Assembly (NCBI GenBank): GCA_030680175.1
Contig: JAUXWO010000021.1
Location: forward strand, 1 to 64,000
Direction: 5' to 3'
DNA: 64,000 nt
Source of the DNA: Vicinamibacterales bacterium
Lineage (GTDB): Bacteria; Acidobacteriota; Vicinamibacteria; Vicinamibacterales; UBA2999
Shown here: positions 1-52,908 of the stretch, piece by piece
Layout: the number at the start of each line of letters is the position of its first letter
Numbering within the stretch: position 1 is the stretch's first letter
Position numbers and translations under genes: made by a program
Notes under the pieces: model-generated
The model's input: only the letters and a program-made list of their open reading frames with translations
Databases searched by the model: none
What the model was told of the DNA's origin: nothing

Positions 1-1305
1 GGCGCCATCAGCGACACAGCGGGGTTCTTCGCCGCGGGGGGCGCCCTGCTGGTCGCGGGCCTCGTGGCCGCGTCGGTGCGGCTCTGGTCACCGGCGCCGT
101 CCTCGCTCGCCCCCGGCCAGCCGGCCGTGCTCGTGCGATTCGGCCTGCGGCACGCACGGTGGCGTCCCACGCGCAGCGTGCTGTCGCTGGCGCTCATCGC
201 GTTTGCCACCTTCGTGCTGGTCACCGTCGGCGCATTCCGCCGCGACGCGTCGGGCCTCTCCCTCGCGCCCGACAGCGGCACCGGGGGCTACGTGCTGATG
301 GCGGAAGCGGTGACGCCGCTGCTGCACGACCCCAACACCACGCAGGGCCGCGGCGACTTCAGCCTGACCGACGACGACCTGGCCGGCGCCCGGGTGGCGC
401 GCTTCCGGCTGCGGCCGGGCGACGAGGCCAGCTGCCTGACGCTGTACCGGCCACAACAGCCGCGGCTGATCGCCCCGGCGCCGGAGTTCGTCGCCGAGAG
501 CCGGTTCCGCTTCGCGGCCTCGCTGGCGGAGACGCCCGAGGAGATCGCGAACCCCTGGCGGCTCCTCGAGCGGCGGTTCCCGGACGGCGCCGTCCCGGTG
601 ATCATCGATGCCACGTCCCTCACGTACGTGTTCCACCTGTCGCTCGGCGACGACTTCACGATGCCTGTCCCCGGCGGCCCGGACCTGACGCTTCGCGTCG
701 TCGCCACGCTCGCCGACAGCGTCTTTCAGTCGGAGGTCGTGATGGGCGAGGCGGACTTCACGCGCCTCTTCCCGCGCCAGGAGGGCTACCGCGTGTGGCT
801 CATCGAGGCGCCCGAGGCGCGTGCCGGTGAGATCGCGACGCTGCTCGAGGATCGCCTGTCGGACTTCGGCGTGGACGTGATCGACACGCGCGCGCGGCTC
901 GCGGCGTATCACCGCGTGGAGAACACCTACCTCTCGACGTTCCAGGCGCTCGGCGCGCTCGGCCTGCTCGTCGGGACACTCGGGCTCGGCGCGGTGCTCG
1001 CACGCAACGTGCTCGAACGGCGGCGCGAGCTCGGCCTGCTGCGCGCCGTCGGCTACGAGACAGGCGCCGTCCGCCGGCTGGTGCTCGCCGAGAGCGGCGG
1101 GTTGCTCGCGGGCGGACTGGGGCTCGGCGCCGGCGCCGCGCTCATCGCGATCGCGCCCGCCCTCATGGCGCGGGGCGGGGTCGTCCCGATCGGCACCTTG
1201 CTGACAGTCGGCAGCATCGTGATCGCCACCGGACTCCTCGCGACGCTGCTGGCCGCACGGCTGGCGACGACGACGGGGATCGTGGCGGCGATCAAGAGCG
1301 AGTGA
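1..1305 (+). CDS. ABC transporter permease, FtsX domain (5' end outside window)
   Basis: The frame is open from the first base, so the start lies upstream; the stop is TGA at 1303. The visible part has a membrane segment at its beginning, a second one starting near residue 55, a roughly 200-residue extracytoplasmic region, and three C-terminal membrane segments. The cytoplasmic loop RRRELGLLRAVGYE between the first two of these is typical of FtsX/MacB-type permeases. Such proteins work with an ATP-binding subunit, which is not in the window. Substrate cannot be told. Family assignment is good; role is inferred. Confidence 0.8.
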   Translation, partial: GAISDTAGFFAAGGALLVAGLVAASVRLWSPAPSSLAPGQPAVLVRFGLRHARWRPTRSVLSLALIAFATFVLVTVGAFRRDASGLSLAPDSGTGGYVLMAEAVTPLLHDPNTTQGRGDFSLTDDDLAGARVARFRLRPGDEASCLTLYRPQQPRLIAPAPEFVAESRFRFAASLAETPEEIANPWRLLERRFPDGAVPVIIDATSLTYVFHLSLGDDFTMPVPGGPDLTLRVVATLADSVFQSEVVMGEADFTRLFPRQEGYRVWLIEAPEARAGEIATLLEDRLSDFGVDVIDTRARLAAYHRVENTYLSTFQALGALGLLVGTLGLGAVLARNVLERRRELGLLRAVGYETGAVRRLVLAESGGLLAGGLGLGAGAALIAIAPALMARGGVVPIGTLLTVGSIVIATGLLATLLAARLATTTGIVAAIKSE

Positions 1306-1315
1306 GACAGGCGAA

Positions 1316-1385
1316 CGGCTGTCGGCTCTCGGCTGTCGGCGATCGGCGATCAGCTTTCGGCGATCAGCGATCGGCTTTCGGCTTC
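1316..1385. repeat. 7-nt tandem array, left arm
   Basis: Ten consecutive heptamers of the form CGGCTNT / CGGCGAT / CAGCTTT start 11 bases after the permease stop codon. An array of reverse-complement type (AGCCGAA/AGCTGAC words) lies at 1507-1663, so the two could pair across a unique centre of about 120 bases. Confidence 0.85.
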
Positions 1386-1459
1386 GACATCCGGAAGCCG
1401 GCGACACCGGTGACCGGCAGCGAGGCGTATACGTGGTCTGTAGCGGAGCGAACAACGGA

Positions 1460-2878
1460 ATGAAGTCACGAGCCGAACGTGAACGGAATACGGCGGATAG
1501 TTGCTCCAGCGCCGGAAGCCGAAAGCTGATAGCTGACAGCCTTTTGCGTGCCGAAAGCCGAGAGCCGAAAGCCGGGAGCCTTTCACGCGCCGAAAGCCGA
1601 AAGCTGACAGCTGGCAGCCTTTTACGTGCCGAAAGCCGAAAGCTGACAGCTGACAGCTTTCGGGCCGCCGCGTGGATCGCCCTGGGACTTCTCGTCTGCC
1701 AGGGCGGCATCGCGGCGGCGCAGTCGTGGCCGCAGTGGCGGGGACCCGCGGGTGATGCGATCGTGGCGGACTTCCGCGCCCCGTCGGCCTGGCCCGAGCG
1801 CCTCGTGAAGCGGTGGGAGGCGCCGGTGGGCGCCGGCCACGCCTCGCCGGTGGTCGCGGGATCCCGTCTCGTCGTCCACACACGACAGGGCGAGGATGAG
1901 GTGGTGGCGGCGTTCGACCTCGAGTCGGGGAAAGCGTTGTGGCGCGATCGCCATCCGGCGCCGTACACGATGAACCCGGCGGCGCGCGGCCACGGTCCCG
2001 GCCCGAAGTCCACGCCCGCCATCGCCGACGGACGCGTGTTCACGCTCGGCATCACGGGCATTCTCTCGGCGCTGGATCTGGCGACCGGCAAGGTGCTGTG
2101 GCGTACGCCGGCCGCAGGCACGCTGCCGCTCTACGGCACCGCGACGTCCCCGATCGTCGACGGCACCGCGGTCATCGCGTTCATGGGCGGGCACGACCGG
2201 GGCGCGCTCACGGCGTTCGACGCCGCCACCGGCGAGGTCCGCTGGCGCTGGGAGGGGGACGGTCCCGGCTACGCGACGCCGATCCTCGCCACGCTGGCCG
2301 GCACGCGCCAGCTCGTGACGCAGTCGCAGGGGCGCGTCCTCGGCCTCGACGCCGGCACGGGCCGCCTGCTCTGGGAGATCCCGTTCACCACCAACTTCGA
2401 TCAGAACTCCGTCACGCCGATGATCGTCAACGGCCTCGTCGTCTACTCGGGCCTCGAGAACGGCACGACCGCGGTGCGCATCACGCGCGCCGGCTCTGGC
2501 TACACGGCCGAGCGCGTGTGGCACAACGCCGAGGTCTCGATGTACATGAGTTCGCCGGCGCTCGTGGACGGCCGGCTGATCGGGTTGTCGCACCGCAACC
2601 GCGGGCAGTTCTTCGCCCTCGAACCGGCCACCGGCACGACGCTCTGGCTGACGCGCGGCCGCGAGGCCGACAACGCCTCGCTCCTGGCCGCCGGATCGCA
2701 CCTGCTGATCGGCACATCCAACGCGGAGCTGATCGTGGCACGCCCCAACGGCGAGGGCCTCCAGGAGGTGCGGCGCTACCAGATGGCCGACTCCGCCGTC
2801 TGGGCGCACCCGGCCGTCTCAGGGCAGCGCCTGATCGTCAAGGACGCCGACACGCTGATCGTCTGGACGCTGCCCTGA
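1460..2878 (+). CDS. Secreted PQQ-binding-like beta-propeller protein with repeat-derived N-terminus
   Basis: The protein from about 1655 on has a hydrophobic signal segment (WIALGLLVCQGGIAAAQ), then WPQWRGP, the usual opening of acidobacterial and planctomycetal outer-membrane PQQ-like propellers. Blade motifs such as LDLATGKVLWRTPA, FDAATGEVRWRWEG and LDAGTGRLLWEIP follow. It is probably periplasmic; whether it binds PQQ or is only a scaffold is not visible. No ATG, GTG or TTG lies between the repeat array and the signal segment. The nearest in-frame starts are ATG 1460 and GTG 1433, on the far side of the array, so translation would pass through about 65 repeat-encoded residues. The native start seems to have been overwritten. 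Start confidence is low, product confidence high. Confidence 0.75.
   Translation: MKSRAERERNTADSCSSAGSRKLIADSLLRAESREPKAGSLSRAESRKLTAGSLLRAESRKLTADSFRAAAWIALGLLVCQGGIAAAQSWPQWRGPAGDAIVADFRAPSAWPERLVKRWEAPVGAGHASPVVAGSRLVVHTRQGEDEVVAAFDLESGKALWRDRHPAPYTMNPAARGHGPGPKSTPAIADGRVFTLGITGILSALDLATGKVLWRTPAAGTLPLYGTATSPIVDGTAVIAFMGGHDRGALTAFDAATGEVRWRWEGDGPGYATPILATLAGTRQLVTQSQGRVLGLDAGTGRLLWEIPFTTNFDQNSVTPMIVNGLVVYSGLENGTTAVRITRAGSGYTAERVWHNAEVSMYMSSPALVDGRLIGLSHRNRGQFFALEPATGTTLWLTRGREADNASLLAAGSHLLIGTSNAELIVARPNGEGLQEVRRYQMADSAVWAHPAVSGQRLIVKDADTLIVWTLP
1507..1663. repeat. 7-nt tandem array with 39-nt higher-order unit, right arm
   Basis: Heptamers such as GCCGAAA and GCTGACA are organised in 39-nt units starting at 1538, 1577 and 1616, with a fourth beginning at 1655. 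Since 39 is divisible by three, the array stays open in the frame of the following gene and would encode a 13-residue repeat (SLLRAESRKLTAD type). It ends exactly where the signal peptide of the PQQ-type protein begins. Confidence 0.85.
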
Positions 2879-2906
2879 CGCCGCCCCCACGCGGCGCGCT
2901 CTGGCC

Positions 2907-3356
2907 TCAGCCTTGCGGCCGGTAGTAGAGCACCATCCCCGCGCCGGCCGCGGCCATCAGGAAGCCCACGTAGAGCAACGGGCTCGGCGCCTCCTTCGGG
3001 GGATGGAGGATGACGGTGGCGATCACGTTGATGAGCGGCGCGCCGCCGAACACGAGCGGCATCACGTAGAGCGGCGACCCGCCCGCGCGAAACGCGTAGA
3101 TGATGCACACGGCCCCCAGCGCCCCGAGCGTCCCCGCCGCGGTGGCGATGAGCGTGCCGGACACGGTGAAGTTCCGAAGCTCCCCCTGCGCGGACAGCGC
3201 CACGAGGGGCACCAGCACGCCGATCAGGAAGTAGGCGATCCCCACACACAGCAGGGCGCGCAACGGATTCCCGAGCGCCACCTGCCCCTTGTGCAGCGAC
3301 ACGCCATACAACCCCCAGGACAACACCGCCCCACCCACAAACGCAATCCACGACAT
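2907..3356 (-). CDS. Small DMT-like integral membrane protein
   Basis: 149 residues with about five hydrophobic segments, a GAxP-type loop (FGGAPLINVIATVI) and a C-terminal YRPQG tail. It resembles one half of an EamA/DMT carrier, which would need to dimerise. The start ATG at 3356 is preceded by GAGGAA, an acceptable ribosome site. It converges with the PQQ-type gene 28 bases away. Substrate unknown. Confidence 0.6.
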   Translation of the reverse strand: MSWIAFVGGAVLSWGLYGVSLHKGQVALGNPLRALLCVGIAYFLIGVLVPLVALSAQGELRNFTVSGTLIATAAGTLGALGAVCIIYAFRAGGSPLYVMPLVFGGAPLINVIATVILHPPKEAPSPLLYVGFLMAAAGAGMVLYYRPQG

Positions 3357-3384
3357 CGGGGTTCCTCGCTTCGCTCGGTTGTTA

Positions 3385-3468
3385 GCTGTCGGCTGTCGGC
3401 CATCAGCGATCAGCTATCGGCTATCGGCTATCGGCTATCGGCTATCGGCTATCGGCTATCGGCCGATG
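3385..3468. repeat. 7-nt tandem array (GCTATCG), left flank of the four-helix-bundle gene
   Basis: Twelve heptamers, the last eight identical GCTATCG, preceded by GCTGTCG, GCCATCA and GCGATCA variants. The sequence is of reverse-complement type to the array at 3981-4043 on the other side of the gene at 3589-4020. Confidence 0.9.
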
Positions 3469-3554
3469 ATGTTAGCGCTTTCTGCGACTTCTTGAGAGGC
3501 GGGCCGTGCAGATTCTGGAGCCCACAAGGCCGCAGCACGAGGATTCACGCAGAA

Positions 3555-3566
3555 ATCCACGTGGAT
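3555..3566. promoter_or_regulatory. 12-bp perfect palindrome upstream of the four-helix-bundle gene
   Basis: ATCCACGTGGAT lies 22 bases before the start codon. It could be an operator or a chance site; no -10 hexamer is obvious next to it. Confidence 0.3.
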
Positions 3567-3588
3567 CCGTTCTTGCGACGACCAACGC

Positions 3589-4020
3589 ATGAGCCGCAAC
3601 TACTCCAACCTCCGCGTGTTCGTGCTTGCCGACGCGCTGGTCCTCGACGTCTATGCCGCCAGCCGCCAACTCCCCGAGGAAGAACGCTTCGGGCTGCAAT
3701 CGCAGCTGCGTCGCGCCGCGACCTCAGTGGCCACCAACATTGTCGAAGGCTCCACCCGGCGTTCCGACAAAGCCTACCTGACGTTCCTCGAAACGGCGCT
3801 TGGTTCCGCGTCCGAGACCGCGTACCTTCTGTCGGTCGCCATGCGCGTCGGCGCGCTTTCAGTGACTGCGGCCGCCCCACTCGTGGAGCGCTACGCGGGT
3901 CTGGTGCGCCAGCTCGAGGCGCTCATCACAAAGATCGCCTCAGACCTGCCCGCCCGACCCGTCCGCCGGGCAGGCGCAGCGCCGGGAGCTGGGAGCTGGG
4001 AGCCGAAAGCTGATCGCTGA
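3589..4020 (+). CDS. Four-helix-bundle protein, S23/23S rRNA intervening-sequence type
   Basis: 143 residues, helical, with the family hallmarks: an N-terminal LRVFVLADALVLDVY helix, LPEEERFGLQSQLRRAA, SVATNIVEGSTR, and LTFLETALGSASETAYLL. These proteins were first met inside 23S rRNA intervening sequences and share a fold with the Avd accessory protein of diversity-generating retroelements, but most free-standing copies have no known function. No reverse transcriptase or rRNA is nearby. The gene sits between two inverted 7-nt arrays, and its last roughly ten residues and stop codon come from the right-hand array. Start ATG 3589 has no convincing Shine-Dalgarno. Confidence 0.85.
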   Translation: MSRNYSNLRVFVLADALVLDVYAASRQLPEEERFGLQSQLRRAATSVATNIVEGSTRRSDKAYLTFLETALGSASETAYLLSVAMRVGALSVTAAAPLVERYAGLVRQLEALITKIASDLPARPVRRAGAAPGAGSWEPKADR

Positions 4021-4043
4021 TCGCTGACAGCCGATCGCCGCTA
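3981..4043. repeat. 7-nt tandem array, right flank of the four-helix-bundle gene
   Basis: Nine heptamers (GCCGGGA, GCTGGGA twice, GCCGAAA, GCTGATC twice, GCTGACA, GCCGATC, GCCGCTA). It overlaps the 3' end of the four-helix gene and reaches to within ten bases of the TonB receptor stop codon. Confidence 0.85.
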
Positions 4044-4052
4044 TACGTGCGC

Positions 4053-7000
4053 TCAGAACCTCACCCGCACGCCCAGCTGCACCTGCCGCGCCGAGGTGAT
4101 CGTGTTGCGGATGCGGCCGAAGCTGGCGAGCGGCGCTTCATTGTCGGCCACCCCGGCGAAGGCCGTGAGCGCGGGGATGCCGAAGTTCGCGCGGTTGAAG
4201 ACGTTGAACATCTCCACCCGCAGCTCCGCTCGGCCGCCGGGGCCGAAGGCGGGCAGGCGAACGTCCTTCACGAGCGACAGGTCCACGGTGCGCAGGTCGG
4301 GGCCGATGAAGTCGCCGCGGCCCGTGTCGCCGAACGTGCCCGCCGCCGGCGTCACGAACGCGGCCGGGTTGAACCACTGATCGGGATTGCCCGTGACCGC
4401 GTTGCCGGGCCCGAAGCCAGGCGCGTAGCTCGCGCGGTCGCGCCCGATGCCGGGGCCGAGCGACGGCTGCCAGAGCGACCGCGACCGGTTGTTCTGCACG
4501 AACACGGTGAGCGGGCTCCCGGTGCGCATGTTCATGATCCCCGACAGCCGCCAGCCATCGAGCACCGCGCCGGCCGCCCCCGTCAGCGCGCGTGCGAACG
4601 GCACGTCCCAGCTCACGCTCACCACCCAGTTGTGCTCGGCATGGAAGTCCGAGAGCCCCTTGTTGTAGCCGGCGATGAACTCGGGGAACGCGGACGTCGT
4701 GCCGTTGGTCGCATCCGAGAAGAAGGTGGACGCCTGCGTCGTGTCCTCGGACTTCGACCAGGTGTACGACGACTGGAACATCAGCCCATCCGTGAACCGG
4801 CGCCGGAGTTCGACGATGAACGCGCGGTACCAGGAGTCGCCGTCGGCGCTCTTGAGCTCGATGGTGGTCCACGCGGTGTTCTGCCGCGGCCCGCCGGCCG
4901 GGAAGAACGGCCGGCCATCGGCGCCGGTCACCGGGATCGCGGTGTTCACGTCGTTGCTGCGCAGCAGGTGGCGGCCGCGCGACCCCGCGTACCCAATCGT
5001 GGCGGCGATCTGCCCGGGCAGCTCCTGCTGCACGTTCACGTTCCACACGTGGACGCGCGGCGTCTTGTAGTCCCATTGCACCGGACGAATCGAGTTGCCG
5101 GACGCGCGCTCGAAGGGCGGGTTCGGGAACGTCGGCGCCGGGAACACCACGCGCGGCGTGGCCGGCGGATTCGTCACGGTGACGATCAGGTTCTGGTAGC
5201 TGTTGGTGTTGTAGTACAGCCCGTAGCCGCCGCGCACGGCGGTGCGGCCCGCGCCATCCACGTTCCACGCAAACCCGAGGCGGGGCGAGAGGTTCGTGTA
5301 GCCGGGGCTGTCGAAGAGCCGGCCCGTCGACGGCGCGCGGTCCGTCAGGTTCACGAGCGCCGAGTCGCGGCCATTGATGTCCGAGGGCATCGTCGTGAAC
5401 TCGTAGCGCAGCCCGGCGTTCAGCGACAGCCGCGACGACGCCTGGTACTCGTGCTGCACGTAGGCGCCCATCAGCCAGAAGCGCCAGTAGCGGTCGAACT
5501 GCCCGTCGGGCCGGAGGCCGATGAAGCTCGTGGCGCGGTTCTCGAGCAACGCGCGCAGGTTGGCGAAGGAGTACGTGCCCAGGCTGAACGTCGGGTTCAC
5601 CATGTCCTGCAGGTAGCGTTCGGCGAGCCCGCCGAACTTCACCACGTGGCGTCCACGCGCGTAGGTCGAGTCCTGCTGCAGGCTGAAGACGTGCTGCAGG
5701 AATCGCACGTCGACCGAGCTCTGCGTCCCGAAGCGGTTCAACCCGCCGACGTCGATGTTGCCGACATACGAGCGGCCCGGGACAAACGGCGCGAGCGGCG
5801 TCGTGGTCGCCACCTCGACATCCTGCCCGACGCGGGTGCGGCTCAGGCCGGCGCGGAACGTGCCGAGCAGGCGCGGCGACCACACGCGGCGCAACTCGAG
5901 CGTCGCGAACTGGTTGCGCGAGACGAACGACCGCGGGAACTGCGGATAGTCCGTCGGCAGCCGCTGCGCCGCATCGTCGAATGTGTAGCGCGCGAAGAGC
6001 TGTGTGCCCGGGCTGGCGTGGTAGTCGAGGCGGCCCTGGAGGAAGTCCTGGTCGAGCACCTGGTCGAACTGAAATCGGTAGAGCGCCGTGCCGTCGCCGA
6101 GCGCGGCGCCGTTGGCGCGCGGGTACTCGGCCAGGTACGGCGCCACACCGGGATGGATGCCGACGTTCAGGAACTGGCCCGGCCGCGCCGGATCCGGCAG
6201 CAGGCCGAGACGCGCGTTGTCGTCGGGCACGGTGGACGTGATCGTCCGGCCGAGGTTCTCGCGCAGCGCCTCGACGCCGACGAAGTAGAACAGCCGGTCG
6301 CGCCGCACCGGGCCGCCGAACGCCCCCCCGAACTGGTTCCGCGTGAAGGGCGGCTTCTCGACGTCGAAGTAGTTCTTCGCGTCCATCCGGTCGTTGCGGT
6401 GGAACTCGTAGGCGCTCCCGCGCACCTGGTTGGTGCCCGACCGCGTGAGCACGTTGATCTGCGCCCCCGAGTTGCGTCCGAACTCCGCGCCGTAGGCGTT
6501 GGTCTCGACGCGGAACTCCTGCACCGTCTCCATGCCGAGCGCGGTGCCGGCGGCGCTCCCCGCCGGGCCGTTCGTCATGTCGTTCAGCAGCGTGCCATCG
6601 AGCAGGTAGACGTTGGACCGCGGGTCCTGGCCGTTCACGCTCATCCCGAGCCCGTGCGCCACGACCGACCCCCCGTCGCGGTGCGGATACGCGACGACCG
6701 ATGGCTGCAGCAGGGCCAGGTCCGTGTAGTTGCGGCCATTGAGCGGCAGCTCCTCGATGGCGCGGCCCGCCACGAGGTACGACAGCTCGCCGCTGCGGGT
6801 GTTCACGACGCCGGCGCCGGCGCTCACCATGACCACCTCATTCACCCCGCCCACCTCGAGCGTGAGATTGACGACGGCGATCTCGGTGACGGTCAGCGTG
6901 ACGCCTTCGCGCACAAGGGGCCGGAAGCCGTCCAGCGTCGCACGGATCTCGTACGCGCCCACCGGCAGCGTGGCCACCGTGTACCGGCCGTCGGCGTCGG

Positions 7001-7169
7001 TCGTGACGGCCCGCGTCAAGCCCGTGTCGACCTGGCGCACGACGAGGCTCACGCCGGGAAGCACGGCGCCGCTGCCGTCGACGACGCGGCCGGCGAGGGT
7101 GGCGGTGGTCTGGGCCGCCGCGGTCAACGGCAGGCTCAGCAGCAGCGTAATCACACAGACGATGCGCAT
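4053..7169 (-). CDS. TonB-dependent receptor, Oar-like, with carboxypeptidase-regulatory domain
   Basis: 1038 residues. Signal peptide MRIVCVITLLLSLPLTAAAQ, a carboxypeptidase-regulatory-like domain over about residues 22-110 (LAGRVVDGSGAVLPGVSLVV), a plug with the acidobacterial motif ELPLNGRNYTDLALLQP, then a long beta-barrel ending in aromatic VQLGVRVRF. Such receptors import large or scarce nutrients across the outer membrane using TonB energy. The frame stays open far upstream on this strand through the neighbouring gene, but the signal peptide fixes the start at ATG 7169. It is divergent from the TAXI/TRAP importer genes, which could move the same or a related solute across the inner membrane. 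Confidence 0.9.
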   Translation of the reverse strand: MRIVCVITLLLSLPLTAAAQTTATLAGRVVDGSGAVLPGVSLVVRQVDTGLTRAVTTDADGRYTVATLPVGAYEIRATLDGFRPLVREGVTLTVTEIAVVNLTLEVGGVNEVVMVSAGAGVVNTRSGELSYLVAGRAIEELPLNGRNYTDLALLQPSVVAYPHRDGGSVVAHGLGMSVNGQDPRSNVYLLDGTLLNDMTNGPAGSAAGTALGMETVQEFRVETNAYGAEFGRNSGAQINVLTRSGTNQVRGSAYEFHRNDRMDAKNYFDVEKPPFTRNQFGGAFGGPVRRDRLFYFVGVEALRENLGRTITSTVPDDNARLGLLPDPARPGQFLNVGIHPGVAPYLAEYPRANGAALGDGTALYRFQFDQVLDQDFLQGRLDYHASPGTQLFARYTFDDAAQRLPTDYPQFPRSFVSRNQFATLELRRVWSPRLLGTFRAGLSRTRVGQDVEVATTTPLAPFVPGRSYVGNIDVGGLNRFGTQSSVDVRFLQHVFSLQQDSTYARGRHVVKFGGLAERYLQDMVNPTFSLGTYSFANLRALLENRATSFIGLRPDGQFDRYWRFWLMGAYVQHEYQASSRLSLNAGLRYEFTTMPSDINGRDSALVNLTDRAPSTGRLFDSPGYTNLSPRLGFAWNVDGAGRTAVRGGYGLYYNTNSYQNLIVTVTNPPATPRVVFPAPTFPNPPFERASGNSIRPVQWDYKTPRVHVWNVNVQQELPGQIAATIGYAGSRGRHLLRSNDVNTAIPVTGADGRPFFPAGGPRQNTAWTTIELKSADGDSWYRAFIVELRRRFTDGLMFQSSYTWSKSEDTTQASTFFSDATNGTTSAFPEFIAGYNKGLSDFHAEHNWVVSVSWDVPFARALTGAAGAVLDGWRLSGIMNMRTGSPLTVFVQNNRSRSLWQPSLGPGIGRDRASYAPGFGPGNAVTGNPDQWFNPAAFVTPAAGTFGDTGRGDFIGPDLRTVDLSLVKDVRLPAFGPGGRAELRVEMFNVFNRANFGIPALTAFAGVADNEAPLASFGRIRNTITSARQVQLGVRVRF

Positions 7170-7313
7170 GGGGAACCCGGGCGGCGCGTGGCCGCAAGTC
7201 AGGACAGCCTCATGAGATACTACCTGCGCGGCGGGCTCACGGCGAGCGGCCGGCGTATTTATCGTGGTTTGGACGCCGAACGCGCGGTTCGGGTCCCCTC
7301 GACCGAGGTCTCC

Positions 7314-8285
7314 ATGTTTCGATTCGTCCGGCCACTGGCCCTCGCGACCCTCGCGGCGGTCGCCACTGCCTGCGGCGGCGGCAGTGAGGCGCCCGCGCGC
7401 ACCTTCGTCAACGTCGGCACGGCGCCGCCCGGCGGCGCCTTCTTCGTCGTCGGCAGCGCGCTCAGCGAAGTGCTCGGCGCGGCGGGCGCGGAGCGCGGCT
7501 GGCAGGTCACGGCCGAAGCCACGAGCGGCTCGCAGGAGAACATCCGCCGGCTCACCCAGGGCGAACTCGACTTCGCGCTCTCGAACGCCGCCATCACCTA
7601 CTTTGCCGTTCGTGGGGGCGAAGGGTGGGACCGGGAGTACCCGATGCGATCGGTGATGACCCTGGCCCCGAACATCGCGCTGTTCCTCGCGCCGCGCGGC
7701 GGCAGCGTCCAGACCATCGCGGACCTGCGCGGCAAGCGCGTGGTCATCGGCCCGGCCGGGGCGGGCTTCGAGTACTTCGTCCAGCCGATCCTGGCCGCCC
7801 ACGGCATCGCGTATTCGGACTTCACGCCCCTGAACGCCACGCAGTCGGCCGCGGTGGACATGCTGACGGACGGCTCGGCCGCGGCGGTGTTCCTCGGCGG
7901 GGCGATCCCGACGGCGTCGATCACGCAGGCCGCCTCGTCCATGGACCTCGTCTACGTGCCGTTCGACGAGGACGCGCGCACGCGCCTCGCGGCTGACTAC
8001 TCGTTCTTCAGCCACGCGACGATCCCCGCCGGCACCTACCGCGGGCAGGACACGGACTTCCAGGCGCTCGACGTCGGGTCGATGCACCTCATCGCCGCCG
8101 CGGATCAGGACGAGGATCTGGTCTACCAGGTGACGAAGGCGCTCTGGGAGCGCCGCGAGGAGGTGAGCCAGAAGCACCCGGCCGGGCGGGCCATCAACCC
8201 GGCCAACGCGGTGCGTGACACCGGCACGCCGTTCCATCCCGGCGCGATCCGCTACTACCGCGAGATCGGCATCTGGCCGAACTAG
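7314..8285 (+). CDS. TRAP transporter solute-binding protein, TAXI family (lipoprotein)
   Basis: 323 residues. The N-terminus ends in the lipobox-like VATACGGG, so the mature protein is probably lipid-anchored. Family motifs include NVGTAPPGGAFFVVG, ATSGSQENIRRL, GELDFALSNA and RGKRVVIGPAGAGFEYF. TAXI proteins bind carboxylates such as glutamate or oxoglutarate and hand them to a fused DctQM permease, encoded 9 bases downstream. Start ATG 7314 opens the signal peptide; the frame is open further upstream but without a signal. Confidence 0.88.
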   Translation: MFRFVRPLALATLAAVATACGGGSEAPARTFVNVGTAPPGGAFFVVGSALSEVLGAAGAERGWQVTAEATSGSQENIRRLTQGELDFALSNAAITYFAVRGGEGWDREYPMRSVMTLAPNIALFLAPRGGSVQTIADLRGKRVVIGPAGAGFEYFVQPILAAHGIAYSDFTPLNATQSAAVDMLTDGSAAAVFLGGAIPTASITQAASSMDLVYVPFDEDARTRLAADYSFFSHATIPAGTYRGQDTDFQALDVGSMHLIAAADQDEDLVYQVTKALWERREEVSQKHPAGRAINPANAVRDTGTPFHPGAIRYYREIGIWPN

Positions 8286-8294
8286 TCCCCTGAC

Positions 8295-10265
8295 ATGGCT
8301 GCTTCCGACGCCCAGCCGCGGCTGCCGCGGCTCACGCTGGGCCTGAGCCTGGCGATCTGCGCCTTCACACTGGCCGAGGTCAACTACCCACGGCTCAGCC
8401 CGCAGTCGCAGCTCGCGATCTTCACCGGCCTCGGACTGCTGCTCTGCTTCCTGAACGTCCCGGCGGCGCCGTCGCTCGCCGCCTCGCGCGCGGCACGGGC
8501 CGTCGACGGCCTGCTCGCCCTGCTCACCCTCGCCTGCTGCGGTTTCATCGTCTGGCAAACGGAGCCGGCGTTCACGAGTTCGTGGCTCGACGGCCGGTCG
8601 CTCGGGAACCGCGGCGGCTACGAGACCTCCACCGACATCGCCGTCGCCATCGTCGGCCTCGGCCTGGTGATGGAGGCGGCGCGCCGCACGCTCGGCTGGG
8701 CGCTGCCGCTGCTCTCGAGCGTGTTCCTGCTCTATGCCTACTTCGGCGCCTACGCGCCGGACTGGTTCTTCCCGCACCGCGGCTACAACGTCGACCGCAT
8801 CGTGGCGCAGACGTTCCTCCACACGCAGGGCGTGTTCGGCGTCGCGCTGTCGGTGATGTTCACCTACGTGTTCCTGTTCGTGGTGTTCGGCGCGGTGCTC
8901 GGCGCCACCGGGGCCACGCGGTTCGTGATCCAGGCGGCGGCGCGCGCGTTCGGCCGGACCCCGGGCGGACCCGCCAAGGTGGCGGTGATCAGCAGCGGGC
9001 TGATGGGGTCGCTCTCGGGGAGCGCGGTCGCCAACACGGCCGCGACCGGGACGTTCACGATCCCGATGATGCGCAGCGCCGGGTTCTCGCCGCACATGGC
9101 GGCGGGCATCGAGGCCGCGGCGAGCTCCGGCGGCGCGCTCGTGCCGCCGGTGATGGGCGCCGGCGCCTACATGATGCTGGAGCTGGTCCAGCCGCCCGTC
9201 ACCTACCTGCAGATCGTGCAGGCCGCGATCATCCCCGCGATCCTCTATTACCTGTCGCTGTTCCTCTTCGTCCACTTCTCGGCGCGGCGGCTCGCGCTCG
9301 AGGCTCCCGCGGCGCCGGTCGCGCCAGGCGGCACGGACGATCCGCTCTGGTTCCAGGGGCTCGTGTTCGTGACGGCCCTCGGCAGCCTCGTGGCCTTCCT
9401 CTTCGCCGGCTACACGGCGTTCCGCGCGGTGTCCCTGTCGCTCGCGGCGACGATCGCCGTCAGCTTCCTCCACCCCAGCACCCGCGTCGGCCTGCCGGCG
9501 GCGCGGAAGGCGGTGCTCAACGCCGCGCGTGACGTGGTGCCGCTCATCGCCGCCGCCGCGTGCGTCGGCATCGTGATCGGGGTGGTGACGATGTCGGGGG
9601 TCGGGACGCGGCTGCCGGCGACGATCCTGCCGCTGGCGGAGGACAACCTGTTCCTCGCGCTCGTCGTGATCATGATCTCGTCGCTCGTGCTGGGCATGGG
9701 GCTGCCGTCGGCGGTGACGTACCTGCTGCTGGCGACGCTGATCGGCCCGGTGCTGGGCGAACTGGGCGTGGTGCCGCTGGCGGCGCACCTGTTCATCTTC
9801 TACTTCGGGATGATGGCGATGGTCACGCCCCCGGTGGCGCTGGCGGCGTATGCCGCGGCGTCGATTGCCGGCGCCGACATCATGCGAAGCGGCGTCGCGG
9901 CGTTCCGGATCGCGCTGGCCGGCTTCACGCTGCCGTTCATCTTCGTCTTCCGGCCCGAGCTGCTCTTCCTGTCACCAGACGGCGCACCCGCGATGATCGA
10001 CGTCGTGCAGGCCGTCGCCGCCGGGGCGCTGGGCATCGCGGCCTTCGCGGCGGGCCTGGCCGGCTACCTCTTCGCCCCGACGCCGATCGTGCAGCGTCTG
10101 CTGCTGTACGCCGCCTCCGCCCTGCTCCTGGCGCCAGGGCCGACGGTCTTCGTCGCCGGCGTCCCGCTGCACGTGCTCGACACGACCGGCCTCGTGATCG
10201 GGGTGGTGGTGGCGGCGATGAACTGGCGGGGGCGTGGGCGGGGAGTGGTAGTGGGTAGTGGGTAG
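8295..10265 (+). CDS. TRAP transporter fused permease (DctQM type), TAXI partner
   Basis: 656 residues, about sixteen hydrophobic segments: a four-helix small-subunit part up to about residue 150 joined to the large DctM-type part. Characteristic stretches are SGLMGSLSGSAVANTAATG, AAASSGGALVPPVMGAG and LVLGMGLPSAVTYLLLA. It is a Na+-driven secondary importer working with the preceding binding protein. The last residues (GRGVVVGSG) and the TAG stop lie inside the GTGGGTA array, so the natural C-terminus may have been replaced. Confidence 0.9.
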   Translation: MAASDAQPRLPRLTLGLSLAICAFTLAEVNYPRLSPQSQLAIFTGLGLLLCFLNVPAAPSLAASRAARAVDGLLALLTLACCGFIVWQTEPAFTSSWLDGRSLGNRGGYETSTDIAVAIVGLGLVMEAARRTLGWALPLLSSVFLLYAYFGAYAPDWFFPHRGYNVDRIVAQTFLHTQGVFGVALSVMFTYVFLFVVFGAVLGATGATRFVIQAAARAFGRTPGGPAKVAVISSGLMGSLSGSAVANTAATGTFTIPMMRSAGFSPHMAAGIEAAASSGGALVPPVMGAGAYMMLELVQPPVTYLQIVQAAIIPAILYYLSLFLFVHFSARRLALEAPAAPVAPGGTDDPLWFQGLVFVTALGSLVAFLFAGYTAFRAVSLSLAATIAVSFLHPSTRVGLPAARKAVLNAARDVVPLIAAAACVGIVIGVVTMSGVGTRLPATILPLAEDNLFLALVVIMISSLVLGMGLPSAVTYLLLATLIGPVLGELGVVPLAAHLFIFYFGMMAMVTPPVALAAYAAASIAGADIMRSGVAAFRIALAGFTLPFIFVFRPELLFLSPDGAPAMIDVVQAVAAGALGIAAFAAGLAGYLFAPTPIVQRLLLYAASALLLAPGPTVFVAGVPLHVLDTTGLVIGVVVAAMNWRGRGRGVVVGSG

Positions 10266-10516
10266 TAGCGAGTGGGTAGTGGGTAGTGGGTAGTGGCGAG
10301 TGGCGAGTGGGTAGTGGCGGGTGGGTAGTGGCGAGTGGGTGGTGGCGAGTGGGTAGTGGCGAGTGGGTAGTGGCGAGTGGGTGTAACGAGTGGGTGGTGA
10401 CGGGACTACCTACTACCTACTACCTACTACCCACTACCTACTACCCACTACCTACTACCCACTACCTACTACCCACTACCCACTACCTACTAGCCACTAC
10501 CCACTACTACCTACTC
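10244..10516. repeat. Inverted 7-nt arrays (GTGGGTA / TACCCAC) between convergent genes
   Basis: A G-rich arm of GTGGGTA and GAGTGGC heptamers (about 10244-10395) faces a C-rich arm of CCCACTA/CCTACTA words (about 10405-10516). Both flanking genes read into the G-rich strand at their 3' ends, and both TAG stop codons (10263-10265 and, on the minus strand, 10511-10513) fall inside the arrays. The G-rich strand has many GGG runs spaced four bases apart. Confidence 0.9.
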
Positions 10517-11995
10517 CCCACGTTCCTCCGCCACTCGCCTGGCGATCCGGCCGTTCACGCGAATCCACGTCACCGCGCCGCTGCCGTCGCGGATGAACTC
10601 GACAGCCATGCCGGGGAAGGCGCCAGGACCTGTGGCGTACGCCATGTCGGGCGCCCAGAAGCGCAGACCGTAGCGGCCATCGCCGGATCCCACGGTCAGC
10701 CCATCGCCCTCGACCTGCACGTTGACCTCGCCGACCGGCGGACGCGTGTAGAGTCCGACGTACTCATCGAGCCGCGGCTGCGTGGCGAGTGGTTCGGCGT
10801 GGATCCTCATGCGCTCGTTGCCGCCACGATTGCCGCCCGTCCGCTGGCCCGGCGCCAGCCCGATGTCCTCGTACGTGCGGAGGATGTCCGCCGCAACGTC
10901 CTCGTTCAGCTGCCATCCGTCGGCGTGGTTCGTGAGAATCGCAAAACACAGGTCGCGTTCGGGCACGAGCTGTACGTGCAGGCAGTGGCCGCCGAGCGTC
11001 CCTCCGTGCTGCGCGGTCAGCACGCCGTCCAGCGTGCGCAGGTGCCATCCCAGGCCCATCTCGTCCGACGAGGTGTTTTTCCGGAGGCGAGGCGTTCGGA
11101 TCGCCTCGAGCGACGCCCTGGATAAGAGGCGCTCGCCTGCCGGGCTGCTTCCGTCTCCGAGATGGAAGCGGGCGTAGCGGAGCAGATCGTCGACGCTCAT
11201 GGCGCACCCGCCCGCGGCCACGTTGGCTGGTAATTGGAACGGACGCACGGCGACCGTCCGTCCGTCCTGTTCCCGATGCGGCGCGGCAAACCGGTACGAC
11301 ATCGCCACGCCGGTCGAGGACGTGGCACGCTCGAGCCCGAGCGGCTCCAAGACGAGGGCCGACAGCGCCTCGCCGATCGTGGTGCCGGTGACGACCTCGA
11401 GGACGCGTCCCGCCACGCCCCAGCCGGCATTGTTGTAGCTCCACACCTCACCGGGCCGCGCGAGCTGCGGCAGGTCGTGCAACGTCTCGATGAAGTGCTC
11501 GAGCGTGGCGGGGCCCCGGTCCGGCGTGGTGAGCTGGCCTTCCCATCCGGGCGTATGCGTCAGCAGATGCCAGATCCTCACCTCGCGCGCCGCCGCCGCG
11601 TCCGCCAGGCGGAAGCCGGGGAGGTACTGGGCCACCGGCGCCTCGACATCGACACGCTGCTGGTCGAACAGCCGCATCATGGCGGTCGCCACGACGGTCT
11701 TCGAAATCGATGCGATGGGGAAGACGGTGTCGGACGTGACGGGCTGCGGGTTGTCGATGTTCGTGAGGCCGAAGCCCCGGCTGCGGGACGCCCCGGACTT
11801 GGAGAGGGCAAAGGCCACGCCCGTCGTCCGGTACTCCGCCATCTTCGCGTCGATCGCCCGGCTGATGCGATCGAACCGGTCGTCGTCCTGACGGGCCCCG
11901 TCAGCGGGCAGGACGTCTGGCGCGTTCCCGAGGAGCGAACGCCCGCCGCCCACCACACCCGCGCCCACCACACCGAGAAAGTGCCGTCTGTGCAT
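10511..11995 (-). CDS. Serine hydrolase, beta-lactamase/penicillin-binding-protein family
   Basis: 494 residues. The N-terminus MHRRHFLGVVGAGVVGGG looks like a Tat signal. SxxK is present as S96-I-S-K99, and the second motif as YNN in WSYNNAGW; HLLTHTPGWEG is the usual family loop. A C-terminal domain after about residue 395 is lipocalin-like. The substrate could be a D-amino acid peptide, ester or beta-lactam. ATG 11995 lies 4 bases after the stop codon of the NhaC gene, so the two form an operon. The stop codon sits in the GTGGGTA array. Confidence 0.85.
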   Translation of the reverse strand: MHRRHFLGVVGAGVVGGGRSLLGNAPDVLPADGARQDDDRFDRISRAIDAKMAEYRTTGVAFALSKSGASRSRGFGLTNIDNPQPVTSDTVFPIASISKTVVATAMMRLFDQQRVDVEAPVAQYLPGFRLADAAAAREVRIWHLLTHTPGWEGQLTTPDRGPATLEHFIETLHDLPQLARPGEVWSYNNAGWGVAGRVLEVVTGTTIGEALSALVLEPLGLERATSSTGVAMSYRFAAPHREQDGRTVAVRPFQLPANVAAGGCAMSVDDLLRYARFHLGDGSSPAGERLLSRASLEAIRTPRLRKNTSSDEMGLGWHLRTLDGVLTAQHGGTLGGHCLHVQLVPERDLCFAILTNHADGWQLNEDVAADILRTYEDIGLAPGQRTGGNRGGNERMRIHAEPLATQPRLDEYVGLYTRPPVGEVNVQVEGDGLTVGSGDGRYGLRFWAPDMAYATGPGAFPGMAVEFIRDGSGAVTWIRVNGRIARRVAEERGE

Positions 11996-11999
11996 CGTG

Positions 12000-13499
12000 T
12001 CAGACTCCGAGCATCCCGGCCACGAAGTACATCGTCAGGGCACCCGCGCCGCACAGCAGCGCATAGGGGAGCTGCGTGCGGACGTGGTCGATGTGGTCGC
12101 TCGCGGAGGCCATCGACGACACCACCGTCGTGTCACTGATCGGCGAGCAGTGGTCCCCGAACACGCCGCCGCCGAGGACGGCGCTCACGACGAGCGGCAG
12201 CGACACGGCCGCCCCCTCCGCGTTGAACTGGCCGACGAGCGGCGCGGCCAGCGGGATCATGATCGCGAACGTGCCCCAGCTCGTACCCGTCGAGAACGCG
12301 ATGGCACACGAGACGAGGAAGACGAGCGGCGCCACGAGGACCGGCGTCAGATAGGGCCGCACCTGCTCGGCGACCCAGGGGCCGGTGCCGAGCGCGTTGC
12401 AGGTCATGCCGATGCCGAAGGCCAGCACGAGGAGCGTGGCGATGGGCAGCATGCCGCCCGCGCCCTTGAAGCCGAGGTCGATGAACTCCTGCGGCGACAC
12501 GGCGCGTTGCGCGATGAGCAGGCCGCCGGCCATGACCAGGCCGAACAGCACGCCCCAGAGGACCGAGGTCGAGCCCGACGCCTGGTTGAGGTAGTCCATC
12601 ACCCCGGGCGCCTCGAGGCCGGCCGCGCGCACGCCGATCGTCCCGGTGATCGCAATGCCCGCCGCCACCATGGCGACCATCCCGAACAGGGGCGCCAGGA
12701 TGTTCACGAGACGCGGCGGCAGCCCTTCCTTGCGCGGCACGAAGATCGCCGATTCATCCACCACCGGGTGCGCGCCGTCGGCCAGCACCTTGCCTTCCTC
12801 GCGCGCGCGCCGCTCGGCCCGCGCCATCGGCCCGAAGTCCCATCCCGTGCCGGCGACGGTGAAGACCATGATGACCGAAAGGATGGCGTAGAAGTTGAGC
12901 GGGATGGCCGCGACGAAGACACCGAAGGGGGTCTGATTCCCGAGCGTGCCGGCCGCCGCCTGCACCGTGAGGATGCCAAGCACGGTGGCGCCCCAGCCGT
13001 TGAACGGGATCAGGATGCAGACGGGCGCGGAGGTCGAGTCGCAGATGTAGGCGAGCTTCTCGCGCGAGATCTTCAGCCGGTCGAACAGCGGCCGTGACAC
13101 CGTGCCGACCACCAGGACGGTGATTGTGGATTCGATGAAGACGCCGAGCCCGATGCAGGCGGCCATGAGCTGCGCCCCCCGCCGCGTGGCCGACCACTTC
13201 CACTGCGACACCCACGCGAGGAAGCCGTCCACGCCGCCGCCACGCTGCAGCAGCAGGAGCAGCGACCCCATCAGCATGGTGAAGATGATGACGCGGGTGT
13301 TGCCGGCGTCCCCGAACACGGTCACGAGCGTCTGGATGGCGGAGGCGGTGCCGGTGAGCAGATCGCCCCCGGCATGAATCACCCACCCGACCCAGATGCC
13401 GGCCGTGAGCGAGATGATGACCTGGCGCGTCGCGATGGCCAGTCCGATGGCGAGAAGCGGGGGAAGGATCGACAGCCAGCCGTACGCGTGCTCAGTCAT
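12000..13499 (-). CDS. nhaC: Na+/H+ antiporter, NhaC family
   Basis: 499 residues with about twelve hydrophobic segments. Family stretches include LPPLLAIGLAIATRQVI, HCSPISDTTVVSSM, ISREKLAYICDSTSAPVC and FSTGTSWGTFAIMIPLA. It exchanges cytoplasmic Na+, or an organic cation or acid, for protons across the inner membrane; NhaC homologues also carry malate/lactate. It is the first gene of an operon with the serine hydrolase. A CATAAT hexamer ends 8 bases before ATG 13499, with no Shine-Dalgarno. Confidence 0.88.
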   Translation of the reverse strand: MTEHAYGWLSILPPLLAIGLAIATRQVIISLTAGIWVGWVIHAGGDLLTGTASAIQTLVTVFGDAGNTRVIIFTMLMGSLLLLLQRGGGVDGFLAWVSQWKWSATRRGAQLMAACIGLGVFIESTITVLVVGTVSRPLFDRLKISREKLAYICDSTSAPVCILIPFNGWGATVLGILTVQAAAGTLGNQTPFGVFVAAIPLNFYAILSVIMVFTVAGTGWDFGPMARAERRAREEGKVLADGAHPVVDESAIFVPRKEGLPPRLVNILAPLFGMVAMVAAGIAITGTIGVRAAGLEAPGVMDYLNQASGSTSVLWGVLFGLVMAGGLLIAQRAVSPQEFIDLGFKGAGGMLPIATLLVLAFGIGMTCNALGTGPWVAEQVRPYLTPVLVAPLVFLVSCAIAFSTGTSWGTFAIMIPLAAPLVGQFNAEGAAVSLPLVVSAVLGGGVFGDHCSPISDTTVVSSMASASDHIDHVRTQLPYALLCGAGALTMYFVAGMLGV

Positions 13500-14331: not shown

Positions 14332-16787
14332 AGCCCACCTCCCGTCGAGGTCGAGGTCGTCGGCTCAGTCACCTCCTCGGTGGTCGACTCCTCGAAGAAC
14401 AGCTCCCCGTCGATCACCTCGGTCGTCGGTGAGGTCACCGGCTCATCAATGGCGAACTCCTCGGCAGCCGGCTCCGTCACCGGCTCTTCGACGACCGGCT
14501 CCGTCACCGGCTCCTCGACGACCGGCTCCGTCACCGGCTCTTCGATGACCGGCTCCTGAGGAAGCTCCGGCTCGTCGGGCACCGTCACGCTGACAGGCCA
14601 GGCGTCGCCGAAGATCATCGGTTCGGTCACCGCTGCCGGATCGACCTCCTCGGCAGGATTCCACATGCCGATGGCCCCGCCGCCGAAGCCCCACACGATG
14701 TTGTCACCCGTGTCATTGCCCCAGACGATGTTGTCGTCAAGACCCCACACGATGTTGTCGTCATAGTCGAGGCCCCACACGATGTTGTCGTCGAAGTCGA
14801 GGCCCCACACGATGTTGTCGTCGAGGCTGTTACCCCAGACGATGTTGTCCTCGTCGAGGCCCCACACGATGTTGTCGAGCTGCGAATTGCCCCACACGAT
14901 GTTGTCGCAATCGCCGCCACCGCAGTCCATGCCCCAGACGATGTTGTCGAGCTCGAAGTGGTTACCCCAGACGATGTTGTCGCCGGTGTCGTTACCCCAG
15001 ACGATGTTGTCGCCGGCGTCGTTGCCCCACACGATGTTGTCGAAGTCGAGACCCCAGACGATGTTGTCGTCGCCGGTGTCGTTGCCCCACACGATGTTGT
15101 CGCAGGCCTCACCGCAGGTGTTGCCCCAGACGATGTTGTCCCAGTCGTTGCCCCAGACGATGTTGTCGTCCCAGGCGTTCGCGCCGGGCACGAGCACGCC
15201 GCCGGCGACCCGATAGTTGCCCCAGAGGATGTGCCGGCTCCAGGTGGCGTCCATCGGATAGAGGGCGCCCGGCTGCGCGTCCGTGAAGAACCGCGACAGG
15301 CGCACGGCGCCGAGCGTGTTGAGGAACCCGGCCCCCTGGCTCAGGCGGTCGATCGCCGGCTGGCTCTCCGCGGTGTACTGCAGAATCGCCTTCACCAGAT
15401 TCGGCGTGAGCGTCGGGTTGGCCTCCAGCATCAGCGCGATGCTGCCGGCCACCACGGGCGAGGCCATCGACGTGCCGCTCAAGCTCAAGTAGGGCTTGTA
15501 CGGGGTCGAGACGCTGCCGTCGAGCAGCGCGTGCGGCCGCGTGGCGTAGTAGTGGCTGTTCGGATCGCTCAGCGAGACGATCCCGACGCCCGGTGCGACG
15601 ATGTCGGGCTTGGCCTGCCAGTCGATGTAGGTGGGCCCGCGCGAGCTGAACGGCGCGACGTCGTCGTCCTGCCGGTTGATCGTGCCCTTGTGGTTCGACG
15701 CGCCCACGGCGATGACCCACGGCGCGTTGGCGGGCGCCGTGACGGTGCCGTAGCGCGGGCCGTCGGGCCCGTAGCCCAGGTTGCCGGCGGCGGCCACGAC
15801 CACGATCCCGGCGTCCACCGCGCGCTTGGCGGCCAGCGTCAGGGGATCGGTCCAGTACGACTCGCTGATGGGCGCGCCGATGGACAGGTTGATGACGCGG
15901 ATGTTGAAGATGTCCTTGACGGCCACCGCGTAGTCGAAGGCCGCGATGACGTCGCTCATGTAGCCCGCACCGAGGTGGTCGAGCGCCTTGAGCACGACGA
16001 GATCGGCGTCAGGCGCAATGCCCGCGCGCCGCCCGTCGCTGTCATAGCCGCTGCCGGCGATGGTGCCGGCGACGTGCGTGCCGTGGCCGTTGTCATCGTA
16101 GGGCTGCGACTGGCCGCCCACGAAGTCGGCGAAGTGCCGGACCCGCTGGTTGCCGTAGGGGTACCCCGTCGGACCCGCGCCCGTCAGGTCGTCATGCCAT
16201 CCGGTGACGCCGGAGTCGATGACGGCCACGCCGATCCCGCGTCCCGTGAAGCCGTACTGCTGGTGCACCAGGCTGGCCCCGATGGTCACGGCGGTGCGGT
16301 TGAGCAGCTGCGCCACGGGCCGGTCCACGTGGATGCTCTCCACGGCCGGGTGCCGTGACAGGGCACGCAGGGCGGAGTTGGGCAGTTCGACCACCTGGCC
16401 GCTGATGAGGCCAAGCCGGCGGCCCATCCGGCCGCCGAGGCCGCGCGCCGCCGTCCCGATGTCCATGCCGGGCTTGAGGCGCACGATGACGCGCGAGCGC
16501 CCGCCGCGATCCGCGCGCGCCTCGAGGGCGCGGTCGAGCCGGGGCGCGATCTGCCGCGCCGCGATGCGCGCGGCGCGTGAGGATGGACGAAGGGAGGGTC
16601 CGGCCTCGCGCGCCACCTGAGGTGACTGCGCCTTGGCGCCGCGGGCACCGGGCTGGGCTTCCACCGGCCCCACCTGGCCCCCGAGCACCATGGCTGCGAT
16701 GACCAGCAACGTTGCCGGCCGCCGGAGGCGAGCACCCCAGTGAGGGCTCGCCACCCGTGCGTGCGAAGCGTTCATGTCAGGTCTCAT
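14328..16787 (-). CDS. Secreted S8 subtilisin-family peptidase with 16 DNIVWG repeats
   Basis: 819 residues from ATG 16787 (ATG 16775 is equally possible; the frame is open to 16913). A signal peptide ends near residue 45. An I9-like propeptide (RVIVRLKPGMDIG, about 98-165) precedes the S8 domain with the triad Asp191 in AVIDSGVTG, His235 in NGHGTHVAG and Ser in SGTSMASPVVAG. After the catalytic domain, residues of roughly 540-700 hold sixteen copies of DNIVWG separated by 2-8 residues, often as GNDTGDNIVWG. An acidic tail with EEPVTEPVV repeats follows. The repeat region may bind Ca2+ or a partner; this is not shown. The gene overlaps the acetyltransferase gene by 4 bases. Confidence 0.92.
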   Translation of the reverse strand: MRPDMNASHARVASPHWGARLRRPATLLVIAAMVLGGQVGPVEAQPGARGAKAQSPQVAREAGPSLRPSSRAARIAARQIAPRLDRALEARADRGGRSRVIVRLKPGMDIGTAARGLGGRMGRRLGLISGQVVELPNSALRALSRHPAVESIHVDRPVAQLLNRTAVTIGASLVHQQYGFTGRGIGVAVIDSGVTGWHDDLTGAGPTGYPYGNQRVRHFADFVGGQSQPYDDNGHGTHVAGTIAGSGYDSDGRRAGIAPDADLVVLKALDHLGAGYMSDVIAAFDYAVAVKDIFNIRVINLSIGAPISESYWTDPLTLAAKRAVDAGIVVVAAAGNLGYGPDGPRYGTVTAPANAPWVIAVGASNHKGTINRQDDDVAPFSSRGPTYIDWQAKPDIVAPGVGIVSLSDPNSHYYATRPHALLDGSVSTPYKPYLSLSGTSMASPVVAGSIALMLEANPTLTPNLVKAILQYTAESQPAIDRLSQGAGFLNTLGAVRLSRFFTDAQPGALYPMDATWSRHILWGNYRVAGGVLVPGANAWDDNIVWGNDWDNIVWGNTCGEACDNIVWGNDTGDDNIVWGLDFDNIVWGNDAGDNIVWGNDTGDNIVWGNHFELDNIVWGMDCGGGDCDNIVWGNSQLDNIVWGLDEDNIVWGNSLDDNIVWGLDFDDNIVWGLDYDDNIVWGLDDNIVWGNDTGDNIVWGFGGGAIGMWNPAEEVDPAAVTEPMIFGDAWPVSVTVPDEPELPQEPVIEEPVTEPVVEEPVTEPVVEEPVTEPAAEEFAIDEPVTSPTTEVIDGELFFEESTTEEVTEPTTSTSTGGGL
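14692..15172 (-). repeat. Coding repeat: 16 units of DNIVWG
   Basis: At DNA level each unit is close to GACAACATCGTCTGGGG, with almost no synonymous drift, while spacer lengths vary. Strong DNA identity suggests recent amplification or gene conversion. Confidence 0.9.
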
Positions 16788-17146: not shown

Positions 17147-17188
17147 CCCACTACCCACTACCCACTACCCACTACCCACTACCCACTC
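17147..17188. repeat. 7-nt tandem array (CCCACTA) at the 3' end of the amidohydrolase gene
   Basis: Six CCCACTA heptamers. On the coding strand of the amidohydrolase this is GTGGGTA, beginning 3 bases after its TAA stop, the same word and orientation as at 10244. Confidence 0.9.
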
Positions 17189-17191
17189 GCT

Positions 17192-24640: not shown

Positions 24641-24646
24641 TAGAAT
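24641..24646 (+). promoter_or_regulatory. -10 hexamer TAGAAT, leaderless promoter of glnS
   Basis: It ends 7 bases before ATG 24654. The upstream -35 region is entirely 9-nt repeat. Confidence 0.6.
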
Positions 24647-26530: not shown

Positions 26531-26542
26531 GAGTTCCCTCCC

Positions 26543-30840: not shown

Positions 30841-33756
<2,916 letters not shown>

Positions 33757-52900: not shown

Positions 52901-52908
52901 TCTGGTCC

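Follow-up and report, generated by a model that had tools for sequence, protein, structure and literature searches.

The window, that is, the whole 64,000-nucleotide stretch of DNA analysed here from a Vicinamibacterales bacterium, contains what is probably one copy of a minimal mobile element, made up of an inverted pair of arrays with an S23 gene in the loop and encoding S23 only. Bracketing by inverted arrays is a general rule for S23 genes. Comparison of homologous sites shows the array-S23-array element to be gained and lost between genes as one unit, and the S23 protein appears to act in trans on array hairpins that have no gene.

The S23 cassette and the arrays of the window

The following features of the window are referred to below.

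3378–4043, no strand: S23 cassette (left array, S23 gene and right array), from open reading frames and period scan
3378–3471, plus strand: left arm, GCTATCG/GCTGTCG heptamer array, from period scan
3589–4020, plus strand: S23/23S_rRNA_IVP four-helix-bundle gene, 143 amino acids, from open reading frame and profile matches
3978–4043, minus strand: right arm, reverse-complement-type heptamer array of about 8–9 heptamers, from period scan
1310–1372, plus strand: left arm of a gene-less hairpin in the window vocabulary (GCTATCG), from array survey
1625–1665, minus strand: right arm of the same hairpin, separated from the left arm by 253 bp, from array survey
21527–21567, plus strand: left arm of a gene-less array in the window vocabulary (GCTATCG), from period scan and array survey
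21602–21638, minus strand: right arm of a gene-less array in the window vocabulary (GCTATCG), from period scan
10246–10324, plus strand: left arm of a gene-less GGGTAGT hairpin, with its cognate S23 on contig C64 of the same genome (L009)
10399–10518, minus strand: right arm of a gene-less GGGTAGT hairpin
17137–17195, minus strand: single GGGTAGT-family array (CCCACTA)
24383–24644, plus strand: 9-mer array CCCTGGGCA, with its cognate S23 on contig C102 (L012), from tandem finder and array survey
26490–26539, plus strand: 8-mer AGATCACC-family array, with its cognate S23 on contig C137 (L013)
27821–27870, minus strand: 8-mer AGATCACC-family array
33468–33511, minus strand: left arm of an 8-mer AGATCACC-family gene-less hairpin
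33699–33747, plus strand: right arm of an 8-mer AGATCACC-family gene-less hairpin

The cassette fills the space between two minus-strand genes, one starting at 3356 and the other with its stop near 4053. The tandem finder (TRF) placed the left arm at 3385–3463 (period 7, 11.3 copies, 91% match). Heptamer arrays of opposite type do lie on either side of the gene, as the initial annotation had proposed. Its statement that the final codons and stop are built from the right array also stands, the open reading frame 3589–4020 ending within 3978–4043 with the C-terminus ...GSWEPKADR. The same is true of the recurrence of the arrays, minus the gene, at 1316–1663 and 21515–21650, where inverted pairs were located at 1310–1372/1625–1665 and near 21527–21567/21602–21638.

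The product, with a pI of about 9.8, matches PF05635 (E-value=8.8e-27) and TIGR02436 (E-value=6.7e-27) in profile searches; its 93.9 bits exceed the curated cut-offs of 33.8 (PF05635) and 24 (TIGR02436) and place it in the S23/23S_rRNA_IVP family. A profile of the window protein also matches the solved pentamer 2gsc (XCC0516; E-value=4e-41). As RNA, the 666-nt cassette is predicted to fold with its two arms mutually paired (-316.9 kcal/mol, z -5.4). Aligning the left arm with the reverse complement of the right gave a score of 53; random slots (n=2095) in this repeat-rich genome score 30 or more in 4.5% of cases. The cassette does not lie inside an rRNA gene, its neighbours being protein-coding open reading frames and window positions 1–12000 giving no rRNA match. 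Rfam matches at the arrays, all sub-threshold microRNA hairpins, were set aside.

The window genome (4.98 Mb in 143 contigs) possesses five S23 genes, every one of them bracketed by inverted arrays and each by a separate repeat word: GCTATCG in the window, GGGTAGT, TTAGTTC, the 9-mer GGTGCCCGA and the 8-mer AGATCACC family. In a 464-kb sample the arrays are dense and mostly intergenic, those lacking a gene are more numerous than S23 genes, and the seven largest array families include all five S23 vocabularies. For the other two large families, ATTCGCT and GGGGATC, no S23 with either word was found in the window assembly; the S23 may have been lost or missed in assembly gaps, or another protein may serve these words. 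The ATTCGCT heptamers have five members in the 464 kb and are present in the window at 52901–52996 and 63609–63659, as well as at L194 and L199.

Other repeats were noted in the course of the survey. At L190 (12521–13990) a AGATCACC-family inverted pair surrounds a predicted peptidyl-prolyl isomerase-like gene with no S23; this is the only bracketed gene other than S23 in the own-genome sample, and the bracket is probably two separate arrays. A long tandem repeat, CCCCACACGATGTTGTC, with periods of 27–60 bases, lies at 14468–15168 of the window and is of another kind than the heptamer arrays. At 38618–38941 the window codes for a Y1 transposase domain (PF01797) with the 14-mer repeat GCGCTCAGCAATCG directly upstream (38338–38369), possibly a RAYT-type element.

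Array bracketing and array vocabulary among S23 genes

S23 is present in 40 of 59 related genomes, and an array, usually inverted, lies within 300 bp of it in 28 of 40 loci read in relatives. Arrays are likewise associated with all ten plasmid S23 genes (nine cyanobacterial, one Gemmatimonadota). At a background density of 0.05 arrays per kb, they adjoin S23 in 30 of 80 loci spread over many phyla. The unit is mostly 7 bases, also 8–10 and longer; it is not always 7–10, since at L292 (contig C46 of G045) the inverted flanks of S23 are arrays of an approximately 20-base unit.

Flank complementarity was scored independently of array detection by aligning the 300 bp to the left of a gene with the 300 bp to its right, the latter reverse-complemented. 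Among cross-phylum S23 genes (n=75), 69% scored 30 or more, compared with 1.2% for mismatched pairs of left and right flanks and 0.8% for shifted slots (n=972); about 30% had no clear inverted flanks. The initial annotation had called for a comparison of array flanking around S23 with that around random genes, and by these figures it is far more frequent around S23 than at other positions. In the Vicinamibacterales 73% scored 40 or more, as against 1.3% of mismatched pairs and none of 323 shifted slots, these being taken from S23-bearing genomes other than that of the window. In 48 of 52 cross-phylum cases the G-rich arm is the 5' arm. S23 gave no match in a phage collection; putative viral contigs from IMG/VR do carry it with inverted flanks, and of 39 such contigs 82% scored 30 or more (vs 0.8%).

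Array words were matched to the S23 of the same genome. Among the 59 relatives the 8-mer GGGCTAGC is found only in G029, the S23 of which bears GGGCTAGC. RCAGGGA occurs 118 times in G020, 58 times in G032 and 19 times in G030, each of which has an S23 bearing RCAGGGA, and 0–4 times in the remaining relatives (sisters G028 and G035, 4 and 0). The window word is common in just two genomes, that of the window (81) and G045 (58).

Predictions of the cognate S23 were made from array vocabulary alone and recorded before the loci were read; two proved correct, one was partly correct and one failed. The word CGATCGGG in G058 led to an S23 (L261) bracketed by exactly a CGATCGGG array, and AGGGACR in G037 to L262. 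From GCTGTCG in G045 the S23 at L294 was reached, the left array of which (GGCGGTC/GGCTGTC) is a fair, imperfect match. In G049, AGGGACR led to no S23 that is clearly bracketed by this word. The expectation that the closest S23 would have the same vocabulary was not borne out: L294 is 42% identical to the window S23, and L293, the closest to it at 61%, has a different word, and therefore half of the second prediction failed.

Similar arms were shared by 46 pairs of S23 genes (identity of 45% or more, from different genomes, 74 loci), the permuted mean being 15.7 and the maximum 31 in 1000 permutations. About 13 of these pairs are orthologous sites and most of the others lack flank homology; since arms are shared mostly at non-homologous sites, they travel with the gene.

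Sampling of 13 relatives with no intact S23 yielded four arrays in 300 kb, compared with 90 in 464 kb of the window genome and 48 in 354 kb, away from S23, of S23-bearing relatives. A rule that the presence of S23 makes a genome array-dense was rejected, as it fails within genus g21. There total array density is 0 and 2 per 100 kb with S23 and 2 and 1 per 140 kb without it, and because it is equally low in both, one S23 is insufficient for an array-rich genome. G020 and G032 each have one S23; overall they are as array-poor as their sisters and differ from them in the cognate vocabulary only.

Filled and empty sites

Homologous cyanobacterial plasmids have filled and empty sites with flanks 85–97% identical, the insert being array-S23-array and the empty sites lacking the arrays as well as the gene. 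The nrdB-nrdA gap holds 494 bp of array-S23-array in Nostoc edaphicum and is 13 bp long in Calothrix NIES-4105 (flanks 85% identical). At the TraM|hyp site, downstream of a TraM-domain gene, Nostoc C052 has a 477-bp insert where C057 has a plain spacer of 36 bp (flanks 91–96%); at this site pNsp_c of ATCC 53789 has a gene-less array hairpin. Site A contains a 417-bp insert in pNsp_a and pC052_D and is empty in pNsp_c and pC052_A, while at site B an insert of about 506 bp is present in pNsp_c and absent from pC052_A and pNsp_a. The states of pNsp_a and pNsp_c at the two sites are opposite, so that two plasmids of one strain are each filled where the other is empty. A further filled and empty pair was found in Calothrix/Tolypothrix. 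For the cyanobacterial members, orthologous sites are thus filled in some replicons and empty in others, and the ends are precise, as in a mobile element; the exact limits of the inserts are fuzzy because the ends are arrays. The sites read showed no consistent target-site duplication of the kind that marks DDE insertion sequences.

The initial annotation had suggested a mobile cassette and a search for empty sites in close relatives. Such sites exist on cyanobacterial plasmids, where array-S23-array is gained and lost as a unit; for the window copy no empty orthologous site was obtained. A clean empty site was not found for the G029 element either, the neighbours being different. In strain N6 a hairpin of 182 bp, in the same word and with no gene, splits the S23 gene at site A, from which it follows that non-autonomous copies move. 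This moved hairpin and the vocabulary shared genome by genome support the earlier proposal that S23 may act in trans on gene-less arrays.

Insertions are intergenic and in either orientation, some of them within operons, as at cas6|cas4 (type I-D CRISPR) and imuB|dnaE2. The imuB|dnaE2 copy in sister species has arms of a different word, with a decayed S23 in G028, and vocabularies therefore turn over. The cas6|cas4 gap is an insertion hotspot, and one relative has only a short array there. On two near-identical plasmids this gap is occupied by a GTTGGGTT repeat in Dolichospermum (L288, 1822–2094) and by an S23 element in Anabaena 90 (L283, 2121–2969). The pair (99% identity) was dropped as a clean empty site, the S23-free gap holding another repeat. 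Array inserts were also observed within the dnaE2 coding sequence, at the same place in three congeneric species (L071, 6630–6690; L167; L168), each insert using the array words of the genome that carries it and, in G020, with the reading frame kept.

Mode of movement, alternatives and related systems

S23 proteins are basic, with a median pI of 9.1, and we know of no enzymatic activity for the family. By homology the protein would form a toroid of five four-helix bundles, which may recognise, in single-stranded DNA or RNA, the hairpin that the arms of its element form. It would gather the folded arms, and host enzymes of replication or repair would copy or join the hairpin into new intergenic sites; hairpins with no gene would be non-autonomous copies that S23 serves in trans, in the way that RAYT proteins serve REP hairpins. 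The chemistry of movement is the least certain part of this scheme and the joining step is a guess. For that step alone we tentatively prefer a hairpin at the replication fork as the intermediate, which the replication and repair machinery of the host would join, because there is no consistent target-site duplication and no RVT_1 is needed.

The unit might instead be moved in trans by a known transposase or reverse transcriptase, be it a Y1/RAYT enzyme of the IS200/IS605 kind or that of a retroelement, with S23 as accessory cargo. S23 is homologous to Avd, an accessory protein of diversity-generating retroelements (DGRs; PMC10053308), the lack of consistent target duplications is reminiscent of IS200/IS605, and most S23 genomes have some Y1 gene. 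Against this, RVT_1 reverse transcriptase gave no match in G000 (the window genome), G020, G027, G029, G030, G037, G049 and G058, so that at least eight S23-bearing genomes, two of them single-contig, are without it, and DGR-like spreading was rejected as a requirement. Nor was a Y1 transposase matched in G015, G041 and G051, draft assemblies with 5–17 S23 genes and arrays at most loci read; judging by these drafts a Y1/RAYT helper is not required either, and we regard movement by a known enzyme as quite unlikely. Were the arrays independent dispersed repeats, produced by slippage, template switching or another enzyme, S23 could be a passenger in existing hairpin loops. Such an origin would agree with the excess of gene-less arrays over S23 genes, the families ATTCGCT and GGGGATC with no S23, the differing arm words of sister species at imuB|dnaE2 and the lone short array at cas6|cas4. 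It seems unlikely to us, since the 13 sampled genomes with no intact S23 are almost array-free, vocabularies served to predict S23 loci, protein and arms are inherited together even where the sites are unrelated, and arrays and gene are missing together from empty sites.

The long RNA stems predicted from the arms, and the cutting of the Coxiella intervening-sequence stem by RNase III (PMC4990558), would suit a structure for processing or autoregulation of the S23 transcript that has no role in movement. The same arrays, however, stand at many gene-free places and, at precise sites, are gained and lost along with the gene, which makes this explanation improbable. That simple repeats merely pile up in the long intergenic gaps that hold S23 would fit the dense, mostly intergenic arrays of the window genome; it is already contradicted by the empty sites, and flanks match their own partner and not those of other S23 genes, shifted slots giving no match, so that we give it almost no credence.

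Returning to the mobile element that we prefer, for which the evidence is sequence comparison throughout, we lean slightly towards a wider proposal. S23 genes would constitute a mobile-element class that spans phyla, has no recognisable recombinase or polymerase, encodes a nucleic-acid-binding pentamer as its sole protein and ends in freely evolving arrays of 7–10-base words. Each S23 would drive a separate family of arrays without a gene, and the same activity would have produced the 23S rRNA intervening sequences and the orphan heptamers of cyanobacteria and Xanthomonas. S23 has been without a known function since its discovery in rRNA intervening sequences and heptamer repeats have been orphans for decades; the link would explain both, and S23 elements may account for the origin of many scattered bacterial heptamer repeats. 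Movement that required nothing beyond S23 and host enzymes would fall outside the known transposase, integrase and reverse-transcriptase classes. For annotation, "four helix bundle protein" genes in nrdB|nrdA, cas6|cas4 and imuB|dnaE2 are insertions and not operon members. No connection between S23 and heptamer arrays was found in the open-access literature; most subscription papers and preprints were beyond its scope, and an earlier description is therefore possible.

Dispersed intergenic heptamer arrays resembling those described here are known as the STRR/heptamer repeats of cyanobacteria, TAACTGA in Beggiatoaceae and GGGAATC in Xanthomonas, described as orphans with no link to S23 drawn. 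The GGGAATC arrays form about 70 convergent inverted pairs, and heptamer arrays occur in Nostoc as well (PMC4692102); for TAACTGA, a repeat-binding protein was suggested as a possible mobile element (MacGregor 2015; PMC4679880). Like MITEs, the S23 elements have short gene-less inverted-repeat copies, probably served in trans; they differ from MITEs in ending in tandem arrays, the unit and length of which vary, and in having a presumed helper other than a transposase. Avd is a four-helix-bundle pentamer homologous to S23 (PMC10053308), whereas the window genome and many other S23 genomes, in contrast to DGRs, give no RVT_1 match.

The REP/RAYT system comprises one gene flanked by hairpins, with many gene-less hairpins elsewhere and no clear target duplication, and gene-less hairpins of the same sequence are likewise dispersed in the genome of an S23 element. 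RAYT, however, is a Y1 HUH nuclease whereas the S23 element carries a PF05635 gene, the product of which is an unrelated four-helix bundle with no known activity, and REPs are single palindromes whereas S23 arms are tandem arrays; the S23 system works like REP/RAYT yet without its defining feature. In 23S rRNA intervening sequences an inverted-repeat stem carries in its loop the S23 open reading frame, which has no known function; these sequences are regarded as selfish and suspected to be mobile (PMC4990558). The window cassette shares with those of Coxiella and Leptospira the protein family and an open reading frame between inverted repeats that form a stem. Intervening sequences sit in rRNA helix tips on a unique stem of about 28 bp, whereas elements of the window type have a tandem-array stem, sites between protein genes and dispersed gene-less copies; the array-S23-array element is a free-standing sibling of the rRNA intervening sequences.
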